A stretch of 23,398 nucleotides of DNA, from the IMG/VR virus record IMGVR_UViG_3300010430_000464, positions 1 through 23,398 of that record. One strand, 5' to 3'. The notes beneath the pieces were generated by a model, which saw only the letters and a program-made list of their open reading frames with translations, was not told the DNA's origin and searched no databases. Below, piece after piece: positions 1,698-23,211 of this stretch (the stretch's first letter is position 1; each line of letters begins with the position of its first letter). Position numbers and translations under genes: made by a program. Source of the DNA: a virus.

Positions 1698-1731
1698 TTC
1701 GTCGAATATTATTTGCTAATAACTATATTTG
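1698..1731 (+). promoter_or_regulatory. Promoter of head operon with palindromic operator-like box
   Basis: TATATTTG at 1724-1731 is an exact match to the Bacteroidetes -7 consensus TAnnTTTG. The box TTCGTCGAA at 1698-1706 lies about where a -33 element would be and recurs in the divergent control region near 21720-21781. There is no clear TTG -33 element, so a bound regulator could either activate or repress here. It directly precedes the capsid-protease operon. Confidence 0.65.
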
Positions 1732-2603: not shown

Positions 2604-3872
2604 ATGAGTGAAGAATTTGTAACTCCTGTACAGCTTGAAAGAGAAGTAGAAGCAGGTATTAAGCAACTAAAGTCTTATATTGACGAAACAAATAAGACAG
2701 CAGAAAAGAAATTTGATAACGTAATCGACAAAGATACGTATGCCAAAATCGAAACATTAACCAACGAACTAAGCGAGAAATCTAAGAAATTGGAAGGAGC
2801 TTATGAAAAGATGGATGTTGAGTTTAAGAAGTTTCAAAAGGAAGGTTCTAACAAATCAACAGCGGGTTTATTCGCGGCTGAATTTGAGAAGTCAATAGCC
2901 GAAAAAGGCGGTAACATTAAGGAATTGTTCCAAAGTGGCGGCAACAAATTAAGCCTTAAAATGCCTAACATCACAGGCAAGGCAGTAGGTACAATGACCA
3001 CAAGCGCGAGCTTAACAAACGAAGTTATTGCAGCCGATTACATACCTTCAATCGTAGAGATTGCTAGAAGGTCAATTTACACTAGGCAGCTATTCAGACA
3101 AGGTAGCACAAGCTCTAACACTATGCGTTTCATTCGTGAAATAGCGGGCGAAGGTGCTGTTGCAACAGTAGCCGAAGGTAATGCTAAGCCACAAGTGGAT
3201 AGAGATTTCACCGCTTACGATGCACCAGTGGAAACTATCGCGGGCTTTGTAAGAATTTCAATGCAGTTGCTTGATGACATGAGTACTTTGCGTTCTTTCT
3301 TGCCTAATATGTTGCAAAAAGACATTAGAGAAGAAGAAGATGCTCAATTCCTTTACGGTGACGGTTCAACTCCTAACTTAGGCGGTCTTTCAAAAGCGGG
3401 CAACTTTACAGCCTTCGCAGCTTGGGAAGCAGATGCTAACGCTCAACTTTTAGACTTGTTAATGTCGGCAGTTGTTCAGTTAGAAAGCGCTAACCACGCA
3501 GCTAACGGTATCTTATTGCACCCTAAAGATTGGTTGACAATGTATAACTTGAAAGACAGCACTAACGCTTACTTGCGTGGGCTTTCTATCGACACAAGCT
3601 CAAACCAATTGAACTTGTTAGGTGTACCATTAATCAAATCAAACGCGGTTACGCAAGGGCAGTACTTTGTTGCTGATTGGACACGTAACGCAATGATATT
3701 TGACAGAATGGGTATAGATATTCGTTTCTTCGAGCAAGATGCGACTAACGTAACCACTAACCTAATCACGGTAAGAGCTGAAGAAAGATTAGCCTTCCCT
3801 GTATTAGATGCAACGGCTAGTATCTACGGTGTAATAGCCACAGATATTGCTAAGATAGTTAACTACTCTTAA
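2604..3872 (+). CDS. HK97-fold major capsid protein
   Basis: This 422-residue protein fits the HK97 major capsid family. Residues 1 to about 85 are charged, helical coiled coil and correspond to the delta (scaffold) domain that the upstream protease would remove. The fold proper follows, with a long N-arm near 100-130, the segment around residues 175-195 rich in Arg and Glu, the LLDDMS helix, and GDGSTPNLGGL near 250. Length is usual for an uncleaved precursor. Its transcript is followed 10 nt later by a strong hairpin terminator, which could raise capsid mRNA relative to the downstream genes. Confidence 0.95.
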   Translation: MSEEFVTPVQLEREVEAGIKQLKSYIDETNKTAEKKFDNVIDKDTYAKIETLTNELSEKSKKLEGAYEKMDVEFKKFQKEGSNKSTAGLFAAEFEKSIAEKGGNIKELFQSGGNKLSLKMPNITGKAVGTMTTSASLTNEVIAADYIPSIVEIARRSIYTRQLFRQGSTSSNTMRFIREIAGEGAVATVAEGNAKPQVDRDFTAYDAPVETIAGFVRISMQLLDDMSTLRSFLPNMLQKDIREEEDAQFLYGDGSTPNLGGLSKAGNFTAFAAWEADANAQLLDLLMSAVVQLESANHAANGILLHPKDWLTMYNLKDSTNAYLRGLSIDTSSNQLNLLGVPLIKSNAVTQGQYFVADWTRNAMIFDRMGIDIRFFEQDATNVTTNLITVRAEERLAFPVLDATASIYGVIATDIAKIVNYS

Positions 3873-9953: not shown

Positions 9954-12274
9954 TGGCGGTAGTATTAACAAGCGAGTTTACAAGTAATCAAGACATAGAT
10001 TATAAGGTTGAAATTATCGACACTTCGGCGGGTAGCCCGTTGGCTAATACTTTTGTAGTTCAAGACGTTAATATTTCTTATTCAACCGATACGGACAACA
10101 TATTAACACCCGTTATTCCTTCGACTTGTGAAGTACAATGTTGGAATCAAGGCGGTTATTTCAATTCAACATTTATACCCGCTTTAATTCAAAACCAACA
10201 AGAGCGATTCCAAGTAAAAGTATATCAAGACACGGGCAGCGGTTACTCGTTGTGGTGGTTTGGTTGGGTATTACAAGACCAAGTAGAAGAAGTTGAAGCG
10301 GCGCAACCTAGACAGTTTATTTTGAAGTGCGCTGATGGGTTGGGTAGGATGCAAGACAAAGATTACGTAGACAACAATATAACGAGTAGTGTGCCACCTA
10401 GAACGCTATTTGTGACCTTGTTAACCAAGTTATTAAGCTATTCAGGATTAGCGGGCCTATTTGCGGCAGCTGATGACTACTTGGTAACTTCTTGCGATTG
10501 GTGGGAAGATACAATGACCTACGGAGCTACAACAGATCCCTTATATTTATCTTATATTGATACTGATATTTTCAGGATAAAGGGCGAAGATGGAAGCGAA
10601 GTGCAATATACAAGTGCTTTTGATGTGCTTGTACAAGTGGCGAAGTTATGGAATTGCAGAGTTTACCAAAGTGAAGGCCTTTGGCGATTTGAGCAATACG
10701 GGCAACGTGATAGCACGACATTGAAAGAGAATGTTTACAGGCAAAACGGGACTACTCAAAACAGCTCAACGAGTTCTGCTACTTATGAAAAAGCAATAGC
10801 CACTAATACAAGCCTTACAAGTGCGCGGGCAATGGGTAACAACGAAGCCTTCTTACCCGCTGCAAAGAAAATACAGCTAACCTACGACCAAGCGTTTTTG
10901 ACAAGCGAAATAGGGCAGTTCTACTTTAAAAATGGGGCTTCAACGGCTCAAAATGTAGGATTAGTTGAAGGGCTAACAAATACAAGTTTAAGCATTCCTA
11001 TAAATTATTTTGCGGGGGCTAGTGGAATTGCTATCGCCGATAGAAATAAAATACACAAAGCTATATTTAAAATAGCGCTAACCTTAGAAACTCAAGGCGG
11101 TACTACTTACTATTACACTAATTCAAATGATGGAGAATGGGTCACATCAGCCGCAACTTATGACTTTGAAACCGAGAAAGAGAATCCTAGCAGTAGTGTA
11201 ATTTTAAATGGTAATTATAACCTTACTACAACAGATATACCCGCAGATGGTTATGTAACTCTAAGAATATACTTAGATGACTTTTACGATTACCATAAAA
11301 TAGGGGGTGCGGGTTGGTTGCCAACTACTTTAAGTAATGAAGGTTGGTCAGTTTTCGGAACTATTGAACTTGAAGGCACGGATCAAAACGTTCAAGCTAC
11401 AATCTATAAAAGCGCTAATTCAAGAACAGAAATAGGCGACGACGAAACAATAGATTTAGGTACTTTAAACATTGGTGATTCGTTATTTAACACGGGCCGA
11501 CTAATGGTAAACAACGGCGGTACTTATGAAGGGACATCGAATTGGAGAGAAGGCAATAGCGGTACTTATACAAGTATCTTACAGCTGCTTTGCAATGAAG
11601 CATTAGCCTATTATGACCAACCAATTAGCATCTATGACGGCGAATTGTACTACTCGAATAGCTTTCAATATCGCGTTAATTGGGATAGTCAGTTCTATAT
11701 TCCGATGGATGTCTCATTTAGCTGCAATCAAGGTACTTGGTCGGGTAGATGGTGGCAGATTTACCGCGATAAAACGAACATAAGCGCTGAAACGAAATAC
11801 GAAAAGCGACGAAGGCTATTTAGAAAAAGACGAGCTAACGCAAACGAAGGAGACTTACCTAACGGTGTATTAGGTGGCGTACAGATGACCGAAGGAGACG
11901 GACAAATAAGCGGAGTTGTAGATTACGAAATTACACCCGCTTTGATGACAACGGGCGTAACGGGGGCGACGATAGTACCCGCGGGCGGCGCAGATACTTA
12001 CATCGTAGTGACTAAGGTTGTAATTATAAAAACAGACGGTACAATCGACTACGGCAGCGGTAACGCTTCGATTTACTTCGCAAGCGAAACGACCAACGTA
12101 ATAAGCGCGGGCGGGCTATTGACAGCGATTAACACGGGGCTAACGAAGCAATTTAACCCGACTGACGAAACAAAGTTCTTTGCAAATGAAGACCTTTTAA
12201 TTTCGATTGGTAGCGATGCAAGCGGTGATTATGACTTCACAATTAAAGTTTACTATAAATTAATATCTTTGTAA
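9953..12274 (+). CDS. Large tail-tip or baseplate protein
   Basis: This 773-residue protein starts at the last base of the tape measure stop codon. The N-terminal 130 residues look like a beta-rich distal tail domain with many aromatic residues (YSLWWFGWVLQD near 97-108); a middle section with DVLVQVAKLWNCRVYQSEG resembles the hub fold of tail-tip proteins; the C-terminal 120 residues are Gly/Thr-rich strands. Position after the tape measure and length suggest a single protein joining distal-tail and hub functions, common in Bacteroidetes phages. No lytic motif is visible. Confidence 0.72.
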   Translation: MAVVLTSEFTSNQDIDYKVEIIDTSAGSPLANTFVVQDVNISYSTDTDNILTPVIPSTCEVQCWNQGGYFNSTFIPALIQNQQERFQVKVYQDTGSGYSLWWFGWVLQDQVEEVEAAQPRQFILKCADGLGRMQDKDYVDNNITSSVPPRTLFVTLLTKLLSYSGLAGLFAAADDYLVTSCDWWEDTMTYGATTDPLYLSYIDTDIFRIKGEDGSEVQYTSAFDVLVQVAKLWNCRVYQSEGLWRFEQYGQRDSTTLKENVYRQNGTTQNSSTSSATYEKAIATNTSLTSARAMGNNEAFLPAAKKIQLTYDQAFLTSEIGQFYFKNGASTAQNVGLVEGLTNTSLSIPINYFAGASGIAIADRNKIHKAIFKIALTLETQGGTTYYYTNSNDGEWVTSAATYDFETEKENPSSSVILNGNYNLTTTDIPADGYVTLRIYLDDFYDYHKIGGAGWLPTTLSNEGWSVFGTIELEGTDQNVQATIYKSANSRTEIGDDETIDLGTLNIGDSLFNTGRLMVNNGGTYEGTSNWREGNSGTYTSILQLLCNEALAYYDQPISIYDGELYYSNSFQYRVNWDSQFYIPMDVSFSCNQGTWSGRWWQIYRDKTNISAETKYEKRRRLFRKRRANANEGDLPNGVLGGVQMTEGDGQISGVVDYEITPALMTTGVTGATIVPAGGADTYIVVTKVVIIKTDGTIDYGSGNASIYFASETTNVISAGGLLTAINTGLTKQFNPTDETKFFANEDLLISIGSDASGDYDFTIKVYYKLISL
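12264..12271 (+). promoter_or_regulatory. Possible promoter before the fibre genes
   Basis: TATCTTTG matches TAnnTTTG exactly and lies 13 nt before the ATG at 12285. It overlaps the end of the preceding gene, has no clear TTG -33 element, and may be chance in AT-rich DNA. Confidence 0.3.
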
Positions 12275-18237: not shown

Positions 18238-18444
18238 CTAATGTTTTTCTAGTAGGGATTGAAGTTTTTTGGCTGCTTCGATTTCATTTTGTAGGCCGTC
18301 AATTAGTTTTTGTTTCATAGCCTTAGAAATTGTGCCGCGAGTGATAATTAAATCTAAATATTGTGGTCTAATACCTAATTCAAAGGCAATACCGCTTTTG
18401 TTAATGGCATTGCGGTTAAGCCATTTTTTAAGTTGGTTAATCAT
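18238..18444 (-). CDS. Small helix-turn-helix DNA-binding protein
   Basis: This 68-residue protein is a compact helical protein of Cro/repressor type. The segment INKSGIAFELGIRPQYLDLI (14-33) matches a helix-turn-helix, with SGIAFELGI as the first helix and PQYLDLII as the recognition helix; a helical tail rich in Glu and Lys follows. It overlaps the upstream gene by 8 nt. It is a natural candidate for binding the TTCG(A/T)CGAA boxes, but this is inference. Confidence 0.75.
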   Translation of the reverse strand: MINQLKKWLNRNAINKSGIAFELGIRPQYLDLIITRGTISKAMKQKLIDGLQNEIEAAKKLQSLLEKH

Positions 18445-19920: not shown

Positions 19921-20510
19921 ATCAAGGTATTAATATAATCTCGGCACTCCAAAACACGCGCTTGTATCGCTTCGTATGCCTTAGCATCAAATTTAACTTC
20001 AAAGCTCTTAATACGTTTATCCATGTCAATATCCGAATAGCTCTGAGCTGACAAATCTAACTCTTGCGGTGTATCTACTAAAACATAATCGACGAATGCC
20101 GTTTTTCGTTCGGTTAACGCCATGTAGCCTTGCATTTGCCAATAATAGGTTTTGTCTAACTCTTTATCGAATAAAGGAAATGTAAAGCAATCCCAACTAC
20201 ATTTAGTGTCACGTATGCAATCGGGTAGAATTAAATCGGGCGTTCCTGTTATAAAGTCGTTTGCAAAGTTCTGTTCATTCTTAATTAAGAAGTCGTAACC
20301 GTAATGAAGCTCAACAAGTTCAATAGCTTCGTTTTCCATGTCTAAGCCTTTTTGCAGGTACTTGTTGTAGATTTCTTTTCGTCGTCCGTAAATCTGCTCT
20401 TTGAGCCACGTTTCGCAATATGTTTGAGCCGTTTTGCTTAGTTGGCCTTTTGTTTTGCTCGCTGTCATTATTTGGCTTATTGCCGAGCATCTTATTTTGA
20501 AGTTACGCAT
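19917..20510 (-). CDS. YqaJ-type phage exonuclease
   Basis: This 197-residue protein fits the YqaJ/lambda-exonuclease family, which degrades one strand of double-stranded DNA ends to expose single strands for annealing. Visible parts are the helix with GLDMENEAIEL (55-65), the acidic GTPDLIL (89-95) with Asp92, the DTK site with Asp101 and Lys103 (PD-(D/E)xK layout), and QMQGYM (125-130). Length is typical. It overlaps the ERF gene by 19 nt, and the two would act as an exonuclease-annealase pair. Confidence 0.9.
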   Translation of the reverse strand: MRNFKIRCSAISQIMTASKTKGQLSKTAQTYCETWLKEQIYGRRKEIYNKYLQKGLDMENEAIELVELHYGYDFLIKNEQNFANDFITGTPDLILPDCIRDTKCSWDCFTFPLFDKELDKTYYWQMQGYMALTERKTAFVDYVLVDTPQELDLSAQSYSDIDMDKRIKSFEVKFDAKAYEAIQARVLECRDYINTLI

Positions 20511-21023: not shown

Positions 21024-21299
21024 TTAAAAGTTGTTTAAGGCTTTGTGTAATTCGTTTATAAATACTTCTTTGCTACTCGGTACAGCTTCCCAACGTTCAG
21101 CCCATTTAGCAGCTACCGTATCTACATAAGTGCTAAGTTGCAGTCTAGTTTCAACTTCTGAAGTGTTAATTAATTCTTTCTCGCAAACTTCTGAATATAG
21201 GTATTGATTCCAAACCTTTGTCATTTTCACATCTTCGCCAATCTTTTCAAATTTGCAAAATAGGTTTTCTGTGTACTTGCTTTCTAAATAAATTTCCAT
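21024..21299 (-). CDS. Hypothetical protein
   Basis: I place the start at ATG 21299 (MEIYLES), giving 91 residues; a longer frame at 21323 begins with TTG and would extend into the promoter -7 box at 21321-21328. The product is helical and rich in Lys, Glu and Trp, with no recognised family. It directly precedes the ERF gene and so may belong to the recombination operon. Confidence 0.65.
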   Translation of the reverse strand: MEIYLESKYTENLFCKFEKIGEDVKMTKVWNQYLYSEVCEKELINTSEVETRLQLSTYVDTVAAKWAERWEAVPSSKEVFINELHKALNNF

Positions 21300-21320
21300 T
21301 GTTTTGTTTTTATTATGTTT

Positions 21321-21328
21321 CAAAAATA
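21321..21328 (-). promoter_or_regulatory. Minus-strand promoter of recombination genes
   Basis: TATTTTTG on the minus strand is an exact TAnnTTTG match, 21 nt before ATG 21299. A partial operator-like box, TTCGACAAA, lies 29 nt upstream (21357-21365). Confidence 0.55.
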
Positions 21329-21334
21329 TTATTT

Positions 21335-21371
21335 AGGCAGTTTGCAAACTTTTTAATTCGACAAACTGCCT
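21335..21371. repeat. 10-bp inverted repeat with inner palindrome
   Basis: AGGCAGTTTG (21335-21344) and CAAACTGCCT (21362-21371) are perfect inverted repeats. The inner AGTTTGCAAACT (21339-21350) is also a perfect palindrome and can pair in a competing way. It lies between two minus-strand genes and next to a promoter. Confidence 0.75.
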
Positions 21372-21382
21372 GATTGTGTCGT

Positions 21383-21664
21383 TTAATCGTTACTTAACCA
21401 CTTCGGGTCAGTCTTGTGCGGGTGTAAGTAGCTTTCAGTAATTGAATTGTAAATATCAACATCTTCTAAAGCTAAATCTTCGTTACTGTATGTAATATAG
21501 TTAATTATTATGTCGCCATCGTTGTGAAAATCGTAGTTTAATCTTAAATGCTCTATTTCGTTATTAAAGTAATAGAATACGTCAAAGTCGTAACCACCGT
21601 CGCCATGTCGTCCGTTAATGTGTGACTCAAATTCTTTTTTCAGTTGTGCTAATTGCTTATTCAT
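21383..21664 (-). CDS. Hypothetical protein, first gene of minus-strand unit
   Basis: This 93-residue acidic protein has a helical start (1-17), a beta section with GYDFDVFYYF and further strands around IIINYITYS, and an acidic, partly helical end. I recognise no family. It is the first gene after the divergent control region, preceded by a TAAATTTG -7 box and a 5' leader of about 40 nt, so it should be made early. Confidence 0.65.
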   Translation of the reverse strand: MNKQLAQLKKEFESHINGRHGDGGYDFDVFYYFNNEIEHLRLNYDFHNDGDIIINYITYSNEDLALEDVDIYNSITESYLHPHKTDPKWLSND

Positions 21665-21710
21665 GTTTTTCGTTTTGATGGTTCAAATATCTATTGCCCA
21701 CCAACGCTAT

Positions 21711-21718
21711 CAAATTTA
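21711..21718 (-). promoter_or_regulatory. Main minus-strand promoter
   Basis: TAAATTTG on the minus strand is an exact -7 consensus match. A TTTG lies 16 nt further upstream as a candidate -33, and the palindromic box AATTCGACGAATT abuts the -7 box, so a regulator bound there would block RNA polymerase. The predicted start site is near 21704. Confidence 0.65.
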
Positions 21719-21781
21719 ATTCGACGAATTGCGACAAATCTTCGACGAATGTTTATCGACGTTTTTTCTTAGTTCGTCGAA
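21718..21781. promoter_or_regulatory. Cluster of palindromic operator-like boxes
   Basis: Three full TTCG(A/T)CGAA boxes occur at 21720-21728, 21741-21749 and 21773-21781, with a degenerate ATCGACGTT at 21755-21763. The first is the centre of a 13-bp palindrome AATTCGACGAATT. Full boxes are 21 and 32 bp apart, close to two and three helical turns, so bound dimers would lie on one face. Confidence 0.7.
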
Positions 21782-21809
21782 ATAATTATTTAACAAGTTC
21801 GGGGTAGGG

Positions 21810-21817
21810 TACTTTTG
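21810..21817 (+). promoter_or_regulatory. Plus-strand promoter of helicase
   Basis: TACTTTTG is an exact TAnnTTTG match, 26 nt before ATG 21844, and 28 nt downstream of the third operator-like box. No convincing TTG -33 element is visible. Confidence 0.55.
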
Positions 21818-21843
21818 AAGCCTAATAAAAACGAAACAAAATA

Positions 21844-23211
21844 ATGCACGTAAACTATCAAGAGTTTCTAAAAAAGAAAACGCATCTATTAGGTGACTTT
21901 GGATTTAAATTAAACTATATGCCTGACATTGCTTTTGACTTTCAAGCTGACATAATTGAAAAAGCTGTTAAAAAAGGTCGTATTGCTCTATTCCTTGACA
22001 CGGGTTTAGGCAAAACTTTAATCAGTCTAGCAATAGCAAAAAACATTGTTAATCATACAAATAAAAAGGTGCTAATACTTACACCTTTAGCGGTTGGGCA
22101 TCAATTTATTAAAGAAGCTAAAGACAGATCAATTACGGATGATATTGAAATATCAAAAGATGGTAAGCATACAAAAAAAATAGTTGTATGCAATTACGAG
22201 CGCTTGCACTACTTTAATTCAAATGACTTTGAGTGTGTTATACTTGACGAATCAAGCATACTTAAAAACTTTGACGGTAAAACAAAGTGGGCAGTAACCG
22301 ATTTTATGAAAAAAATAAAATTTAGAATACTAACAACAGCAACTCCAGCTCCAAATGATTACATTGAATTTGGTACAAGTTCAGAAGCTCTTGGATATTT
22401 GCCTTATATGGATATGTTAACTAAATTCTTTGGAAATAATGAGAATAACGTAAGACCGCAAGACATAGGAACAAAATGGTATTTAAAACCACACGCAAAA
22501 AATGAATTTTTTAGTTGGTTAAACCAATGGAGTATTTCAGTTAAAAAGCCTAGTGATTTAGGTTTTTCAGATAATAGATACAAGTTACCTAATTTACAAG
22601 AAAACAAAGTATTTGTAAGAAATGAGCAAAATTGGGTAATAGATGGTCAAATTAAAATGTTTAACGGTATCGCTCGTACAATGTCAGAAGTAAGAGAAGA
22701 ACAAAAAGCTACAACTAATGTAAGATGTGAAAAAGCCTACGAATTAGCCAAAGGTAAAAACTCCGTGTATTGGTGTAATTTCAATCAAGAAGGTGACTTA
22801 TTAGCTGAATTAGATAAAGAAGCATACCAAATAAAAGGCGGTATGAGCATTGATAAAAAAGAAGAAATACTTTTTGCTTTTGCTGATGGAGAAATTAAGA
22901 GAATAATTACTAAACCAAAGATGACTTCATTCGGGTTAAATTGGCAACATTGTCAACACACCGTTTATTTTCCAACATGGAGTTATGAGCAATATTATCA
23001 AGCCATTAGAAGGTTTTGGAGATTCGGACAAACAAAAGACGTTACAGTTGATTTGGTTTTATCTGATGGACAAAAAAGAGTTTTAGATACACTACTTTAT
23101 AAAACTAAAAAAGCTATTGAGTTCAATAATTTAATACAAAAAAACATAAACGGATTAGTAGATTTAAGTACAAAGCAATTTAACAAACAAATAATTAAAC
23201 CAACATGGTAA
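21844..23211 (+). CDS. SNF2-like DEAD-box helicase
   Basis: This 455-residue protein is a two-lobe superfamily 2 DNA translocase. It has a Q-type start (DFQAD 32-36), Walker A DTGLGKT (52-58), the DExx box LDESS (134-138), TTATP (164-168), and a final QAIRRFWRFGQ (386-396), the SNF2-type motif VI. Length is short for chromatin remodellers and typical of phage members. It ends by overlapping the methyltransferase start by 7 nt, a pairing that also recurs in other phages as I recall. It may help replication, or aid methylation by moving on DNA. Confidence 0.88.
   Translation: MHVNYQEFLKKKTHLLGDFGFKLNYMPDIAFDFQADIIEKAVKKGRIALFLDTGLGKTLISLAIAKNIVNHTNKKVLILTPLAVGHQFIKEAKDRSITDDIEISKDGKHTKKIVVCNYERLHYFNSNDFECVILDESSILKNFDGKTKWAVTDFMKKIKFRILTTATPAPNDYIEFGTSSEALGYLPYMDMLTKFFGNNENNVRPQDIGTKWYLKPHAKNEFFSWLNQWSISVKKPSDLGFSDNRYKLPNLQENKVFVRNEQNWVIDGQIKMFNGIARTMSEVREEQKATTNVRCEKAYELAKGKNSVYWCNFNQEGDLLAELDKEAYQIKGGMSIDKKEEILFAFADGEIKRIITKPKMTSFGLNWQHCQHTVYFPTWSYEQYYQAIRRFWRFGQTKDVTVDLVLSDGQKRVLDTLLYKTKKAIEFNNLIQKNINGLVDLSTKQFNKQIIKPTW

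Follow-up and report, generated by a model that had tools for sequence, protein, structure and literature searches.

A repeated box pair in a group of Bacteroidota phages forms a putative composite promoter that resembles LytTR-type sites and recurs in host chromosomes

Regulators of the LytTR type recognize paired repeats, direct or inverse, that measure 9-11 nt and are separated by spacers of 11-13 nt (PMC4847170), and in LytTR regulatory systems the repeats mostly measure 9 bp, with spacers of 12 bp, and lie 4-11 bp upstream of the -35 element (PMC6193735). From upstream of -35 they mostly activate, whereas CoxC, which overlaps -35, represses (PMC11347149). The site of Escherichia coli YpdB (GGCATTTCAT-N11-GGCATTTCAT) likewise has a period of 21 bp, and its core is similar to the phage box described here. 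The AgrA P2/P3, YpdB yhjX and HdrR/BrsR LRS promoters share with the phage promoters reported below their general build (two direct repeats of 9-10 bp, a spacer of 11-13 bp, a location upstream of -35/-33). Activator-dependent promoters with a fixed box-to-promoter distance are also familiar from the phages themselves: the T4 middle promoters carry a MotA box at -30, and lambda CII recognizes direct-repeat sites. Those activators are encoded by the phages and have their boxes at -30/-35, whereas the boxes considered here are found at -45 and -66. Phage action via a host LytTR regulator (AgrA) has also been proposed for phiCDHM1, which has agrB, agrD and agrC yet lacks a response regulator (PMC3901668); that phage sends a signal to its host, while in the present case the sites of the regulator appear to reside in promoters of the phage itself.

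The DNA analysed here (the window) comprises 23,398 nucleotides and represents the entire IMG/VR record IMGVR_UViG_3300010430_000464, a linear fragment, for which related contigs were used in place of a whole-genome test. The exact box TTCGWCGAA occurs in it only at 1698, 21720, 21741 and 21773 (4 copies vs 0.16 expected from dinucleotide shuffling; 4 or more were reached in 0 of 100 shuffles), and all four copies are intergenic. The full boxes reported in the initial annotation are hence borne out, as are its partial box at 21357 (TTCGACAAA) and the broader notion of a phased, promoter-linked regulatory box common to the divergent promoters, of which the head-operon promoter shares a single copy. 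Other details had to be revised: the better reading of the partial box placed at 21755 is TTTATCGAC at 21752, a distance of exactly 21 bp from 21773; from the proposed phasing of two and three helical turns, 21 bp survives as the single conserved period, while the 32 bp between 21741 and 21773 are only the gap separating back-to-back promoters; and although an exact TAnnTTTG does stand beside the boxes at 21711-21718 (minus strand), the conserved spacing points to GATATTTG (21684-21691) as the -7 element. The description of the boxes as palindromic operators did not hold. Their central A/T is non-random (T on the strand of the served promoter in every case), and thus the boxes have a direction; furthermore, the box of relatives reads TTAATCGAA or TTCATCGAA, both non-palindromic, which makes the repeats direct and directed (TTMATCGAA/TTCRTCGAA). 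A literature look-up of the 9-mer returned only unrelated primer or sequence matches.

Alignment of the pairs on the -7 element revealed a composite of constant order: box1 (TTMRTCGAA), 12 bp, box2 (TTCRTCGAA), 28 bp, the Bacteroidota -7 element TAnnTTTG, a leader resembling GAATCATCAAACAAACAAA, and an ATG located 18-32 nt past the -7 element. Scanning the window with TTMRWCGAA-12-TTCRWCGAA-28-TAnnTTTG recovered 4 matches at <=2 mismatches, while 300 shuffles gave 0 at <=3 mismatches. Three of them are intergenic (21752-21817, plus strand; 21684-21749 and 21321-21386, minus strand) and account for all the boxes at 21357-21781. The fourth (20052-20117, minus strand) falls inside the exonuclease gene, in an amino-acid stretch conserved in homologues, and is probably fortuitous.

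Since TAnnTTTG spans -12 to -5 in Flavobacterium psychrophilum (PMC9723704), box1 is placed at about -70 to -62 and box2 at about -49 to -41, which are activator positions. On the plus strand, box1 (TTTATCGAC, 21752-21760) lies 21 bp before box2 (an exact TTCGTCGAA, 21773-21781), followed after 28 bp, as in relatives, by the -7 element TACTTTTG (21810-21817; predicted +1 near 21822); this 2-mismatch composite precedes the ATG (21844) of a DEAD/SNF2-type helicase (21844-23211, plus strand; Pfam and PHROG), the first gene of the plus-strand operon. The divergent, minus-strand promoter carries TTCGTCGAA both as box1 (21741-21749) and as box2 (21720-21728), and, at exactly 28 bp, the -7 element GATATTTG (21684-21691; predicted +1 near 21679; replaced in the same slot by GACTTTTG in the relative G020), after which come a conserved leader (AACCATCAAAACGAAAAACATG) and the ATG (21664) of an unknown 93-aa protein (21383-21664, minus strand) that opens an operon running on to Erf and the exonuclease. 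The third copy, also on the minus strand, joins a degenerate box1 (TTAAACGAC, 21378-21386) to box2 (TTTGTCGAA, 21357-21365, the partial box mentioned above) and the -7 element TATTTTTG (21321-21328), ahead of the gene at 21024-21299 (ATG 21299). A 30-nt inverted repeat (87% complementary) links 21299-21328 with 21810-21839; it represents the same -7 element and A-rich leader on opposite strands, and therefore the transcribed leader is conserved as well. No clear TTTG is seen in the -33 slot of the window composites. The repeat centres (~-45 and ~-66) lie upstream of -33 and overlap neither -33 nor -7, which suggests an activator site; judging by this arrangement, the boxes are almost certainly the upstream half of a composite, activator-type promoter. 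A sigma-70 scan was uninformative, as it is in Bacteroidota.

The protease/capsid (head) operon is preceded by a single box (TTCGTCGAA, 1698-1706, plus strand), located 17 bp before the sequence-predicted -7 element TATATTTG (1724-1731, plus strand), which is kept in three relatives. This places the box at roughly -38 to -30, where, alone among the boxes, it overlaps the -33 region; it could be a repression site or an incidental half-site. The box is retained in the capsid relatives L200, L201 and L202; in the more distant G001, G009, G010 and G019, the protease gene has no box ahead of it. The predicted +1 (1736), in the region 1724-1831, coincides with the A of the ATG of a short ORF (~31 codons) kept in the same three capsid relatives, so the transcript is probably a conserved leaderless mRNA. 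Between the gene fragment at the left end and the head operon, the window also encodes a Mom-like DNA modification protein (523-1233; PF25680, phrog_1384).

The box or a variant of it, in pairs 21 bp apart, was found in the capsid relatives L200 (97%), L201 (94%) and L202 (78%) and in the Erf relatives L203 and L204 (~76%). The helicase relatives (L001-L080; 65-82% identity) are without boxes except for L078, and make a poor synteny guide because the helicase moves between phages. A loose pair scan of IMG/VR (spacer 8-28) returned mostly chance matches, but also L105, a capsid relative with the exact 21-bp pair. The composite scan of 2.9 million viral contigs recovered 16 stretches, nearly all from one phage group, and the reversed pattern gave 0 matches on the same viral records. 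At <=3 mismatches the longer of these contigs hold 4-7 copies each, always co-oriented within a contig. Across 18 contigs (250 kb, <=3 mismatches) the 12/28 spacing was matched 49 times (42 distinct), while first spacers of 10, 11, 13, 14 and 15 bp yielded zero. Beyond the copies of the window, the related contigs carry ~35 distinct ones of identical spacing. The smaller counts at neighbouring second spacings reflect the permitted mismatches together with a few genuine 29-bp copies; composites of 29 bp with the same leader are present in L386 (G016; 3754-3830 and 10995-11061) and L385 (G014 record, 23527-23592). Nearly all copies are followed, after 18-32 bp, by an ATG on their own strand, and in relatives the same composite precedes the helicase and small genes scattered throughout the genomes. 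No composite was detected in OP947161 and the other viral loci scanned, and blastn of the promoter region against phages gave chance matches only. The composite is thus, as predicted from its sequence, a promoter used dozens of times by one group of Bacteroidota phages. A record named as a Rhodobacteraceae phage (L465, OP947161.1, 9218-15167) encodes a helicase and an Erf close to those of the window phage and of Flavobacterium phages, and its host label may be wrong.

The same composite occurs in bacterial chromosomes. Scanning 84,980 genomes of bacteria and archaea recovered 73 stretches, mostly in Bacteroidota, in which the box1 bases left free in the query were T in 57/73, T in 54/73 and A/G in 64/73 cases (p < 1e-10); as these bases are conserved far beyond chance, the stretches are taken as real host sites. 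Within 151 Flavobacteriaceae there were 16 matches vs 0 for the control. Dropping the -7 requirement in 301 Flavobacteriaceae left a weak signal for TTCATCGA pairs (~36 vs ~20 in the control), with spacings clustered near 18-24 and 30-31 bp. In two Flavobacterium loci (L461, 4215-4280, minus strand; L462, 5317-5382, plus strand) the composite lies between the genes of a GAF-type histidine kinase and a response regulator and points into a gap without an ORF of 90 aa or more, which possibly encodes a small RNA or a small protein.

The 543 kb around the 73 host sites hold 8 LytTR genes vs 0.73 expected from 196 LytTR genes in 41 Bacteroidota genomes (p ~1e-6), as counted with a profile built from few sequences, some of them wrong-strand translations, the key matches being confirmed with Pfam. 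Three of the eight belong to operons led by a site (L311, L323 and L361; the first two are related and not fully independent). The order is site, TolC, HlyD, ABC, MacB, His_kinase, LytTR in L361 and site, outer-membrane barrel, His_kinase, LytTR in L323; in L336 the site begins 49 bp past a LytTR gene whose ortholog is found near sites in L340, L369 and G022. Among 146 neighbour genes (a hand-thinned sample in which known LytTR genes were kept) only Response_reg outranked LytTR in frequency among Pfam families, and the top 25 contained no specific DNA-binding domain other than LytTR. For most of the 73 sites, the 8 kb examined contain no LytTR gene, and no composite was found at the 30 top-ranking LytTR loci from random genomes; only some LytTR regulators could therefore use it.

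Since LytTR sites share no common consensus, assignment to this class rests on geometry and gene neighbourhood: repeats of 9 bp with a spacer of exactly 12 bp in the 49 matches, a box2 that ends 28 bp before TAnnTTTG (at about -41, just upstream of -33), and linkage to LytTR genes in the host copies, though not in the phages. As in LytTR-type systems, the sites appear to be promoter-activating, and a LytS-type His_kinase and a LytTR gene are operon-linked to host composites. What sets the phage composite apart from known LytTR sites is its TTCRTCGAA repeat, the Bacteroidota sigma-A -7 element and its repeated use in phages without a LytTR gene. Taken together, the site layout and the company of host copies make it probable that a regulator of the LytTR (AgrA/YpdB) class binds the boxes.

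A LytTR domain was found in 0 of the 18 box-phage records at E-values up to 10 (these records are fragments, and such a gene or another regulator could be missed), nor did the profile search find any in other phage loci. The contig G013 and the head genes of G001 cover nearly the whole phage gene set and order. As the phage appears to be without a LytTR gene, the host's own two-component response regulator is the most likely candidate, and we consider a host-encoded regulator reasonably likely.

The main rival to a host LytTR regulator is a small phage XRE protein (family c31, 66-81 aa), which would bind the repeats as a C-protein-like activator of phage promoters. Promoters of C-protein controlled restriction-modification systems carry tandem near-symmetric sites upstream of -35, and near-palindromy, a frequent trait of XRE sites, is also seen in the 9-mers; yet in most relatives the boxes (TTAATCGAA, TTCATCGAA) are not palindromes. 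The gene, HTH_3 by Pfam, immediately follows the methyltransferase or helicase in each of the four box contigs extending to the locus (G002, G013, G014 and G017, with the methyltransferase adjacency that recalls C-protein systems lying outside the window), is part of an operon that has the composite promoter and is missing from non-box relatives, although within a single clade common descent confounds such an association. While the sites do not differ, the protein of G017 shares just ~30% identity with the rest. Moreover, the composite is used genome-wide, its repeats are directed, and c31 leaves the identical composite beside host LytTR operons unexplained, all of which departs from C-protein systems. 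We consider an XRE activator rather unlikely. Small XRE (HTH_3) genes right behind the helicase or methyltransferase are seen in the box phages L382 (11915-12160, minus strand) and L388 (750-950, plus strand).

The sites could otherwise be bound by a host regulator of another family that uses tandem 21-bp repeats, the LytTR neighbourhood being indirect. The many host sites that lack a nearby LytTR gene would fit such a regulator, as would the lack of Bacteroidota LytTR motifs in the literature searched. The high rank of LytTR in the hand-thinned neighbour sample, with its retained known LytTR genes, and the exact match of site length, spacer and promoter position to LytTR systems argue against it, and we deem it improbable.

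The initial annotation took the boxes for operators that govern a lytic/lysogenic switch, with the 68-aa helical HTH-like protein encoded at 18238-18444 (minus strand) as the candidate regulator. The boxes do flank divergent promoters and the window does contain this protein, but neither part of the proposal fared well. Operators of the lambda/434 type are symmetric and overlap the -35/-10 elements of divergent repressor/early promoters, whereas these boxes occupy activator positions upstream of -33, keep an invariant 12/28-bp spacing and serve many promoters, including those of scattered genes in relatives. A repressor should also be conserved with its operators; no relative of the HTH protein turned up in the other box phages or in the phage collection, its single-sequence (low-depth) structural model gave no significant match, and no link to the boxes was found. 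That it is the only regulator candidate in the window says little, as the window ends inside the methyltransferase gene, just before the position of the relatives' XRE gene. The proteins examined included no recognisable integrase or repressor module, and a switch of this kind seems very improbable. Least credible of all are iterons of a replication origin bound by an initiator at the divergent intergenic region: the repeats are intergenic and adjoin the helicase, and relatives encode a DnaD-like loader and a primase/helicase, but the relatives' 4-7 copies are spread over the genome, each at a fixed distance from a -7 element and an ATG.

We thus favour, as likely, phage promoters built like those of host LytTR regulators, in which a host response regulator would activate from two direct half-sites; LytTR binding, activation rather than repression and host origin are what we infer from the DNA. 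A dimer of the LytTR-type response regulator would bind box1 (-70 to -62) and box2 (-49 to -41), half-sites that, being 21 bp (two helical turns) apart, would present the same DNA face. Once bound, it would recruit RNA polymerase to a sigma-A promoter endowed with a good -7 element (TAnnTTTG) but no clear TTTG at -33. The phage carries this composite before the helicase operon, the Erf/exonuclease operon and many small genes.

Whether the phage lineage put replication, recombination and many accessory genes under a single host LytTR two-component response regulator is, in our judgement, evenly balanced, and so is the corollary that, with the promoter copied 4-7 times per 13-28 kb, expression is gated by the envelope/export signal of the host sensor. 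If true, TTMRTCGAA-N12-TTCRTCGAA-N28-TAnnTTTG would provide a sequence definition of a Bacteroidota LytTR-type promoter, absent from the literature searched, and these phages would offer a clear case of phage transcription relying on a host signal-response regulator instead of an activator of their own. The success of the phage would then depend on the signalling state of its host.
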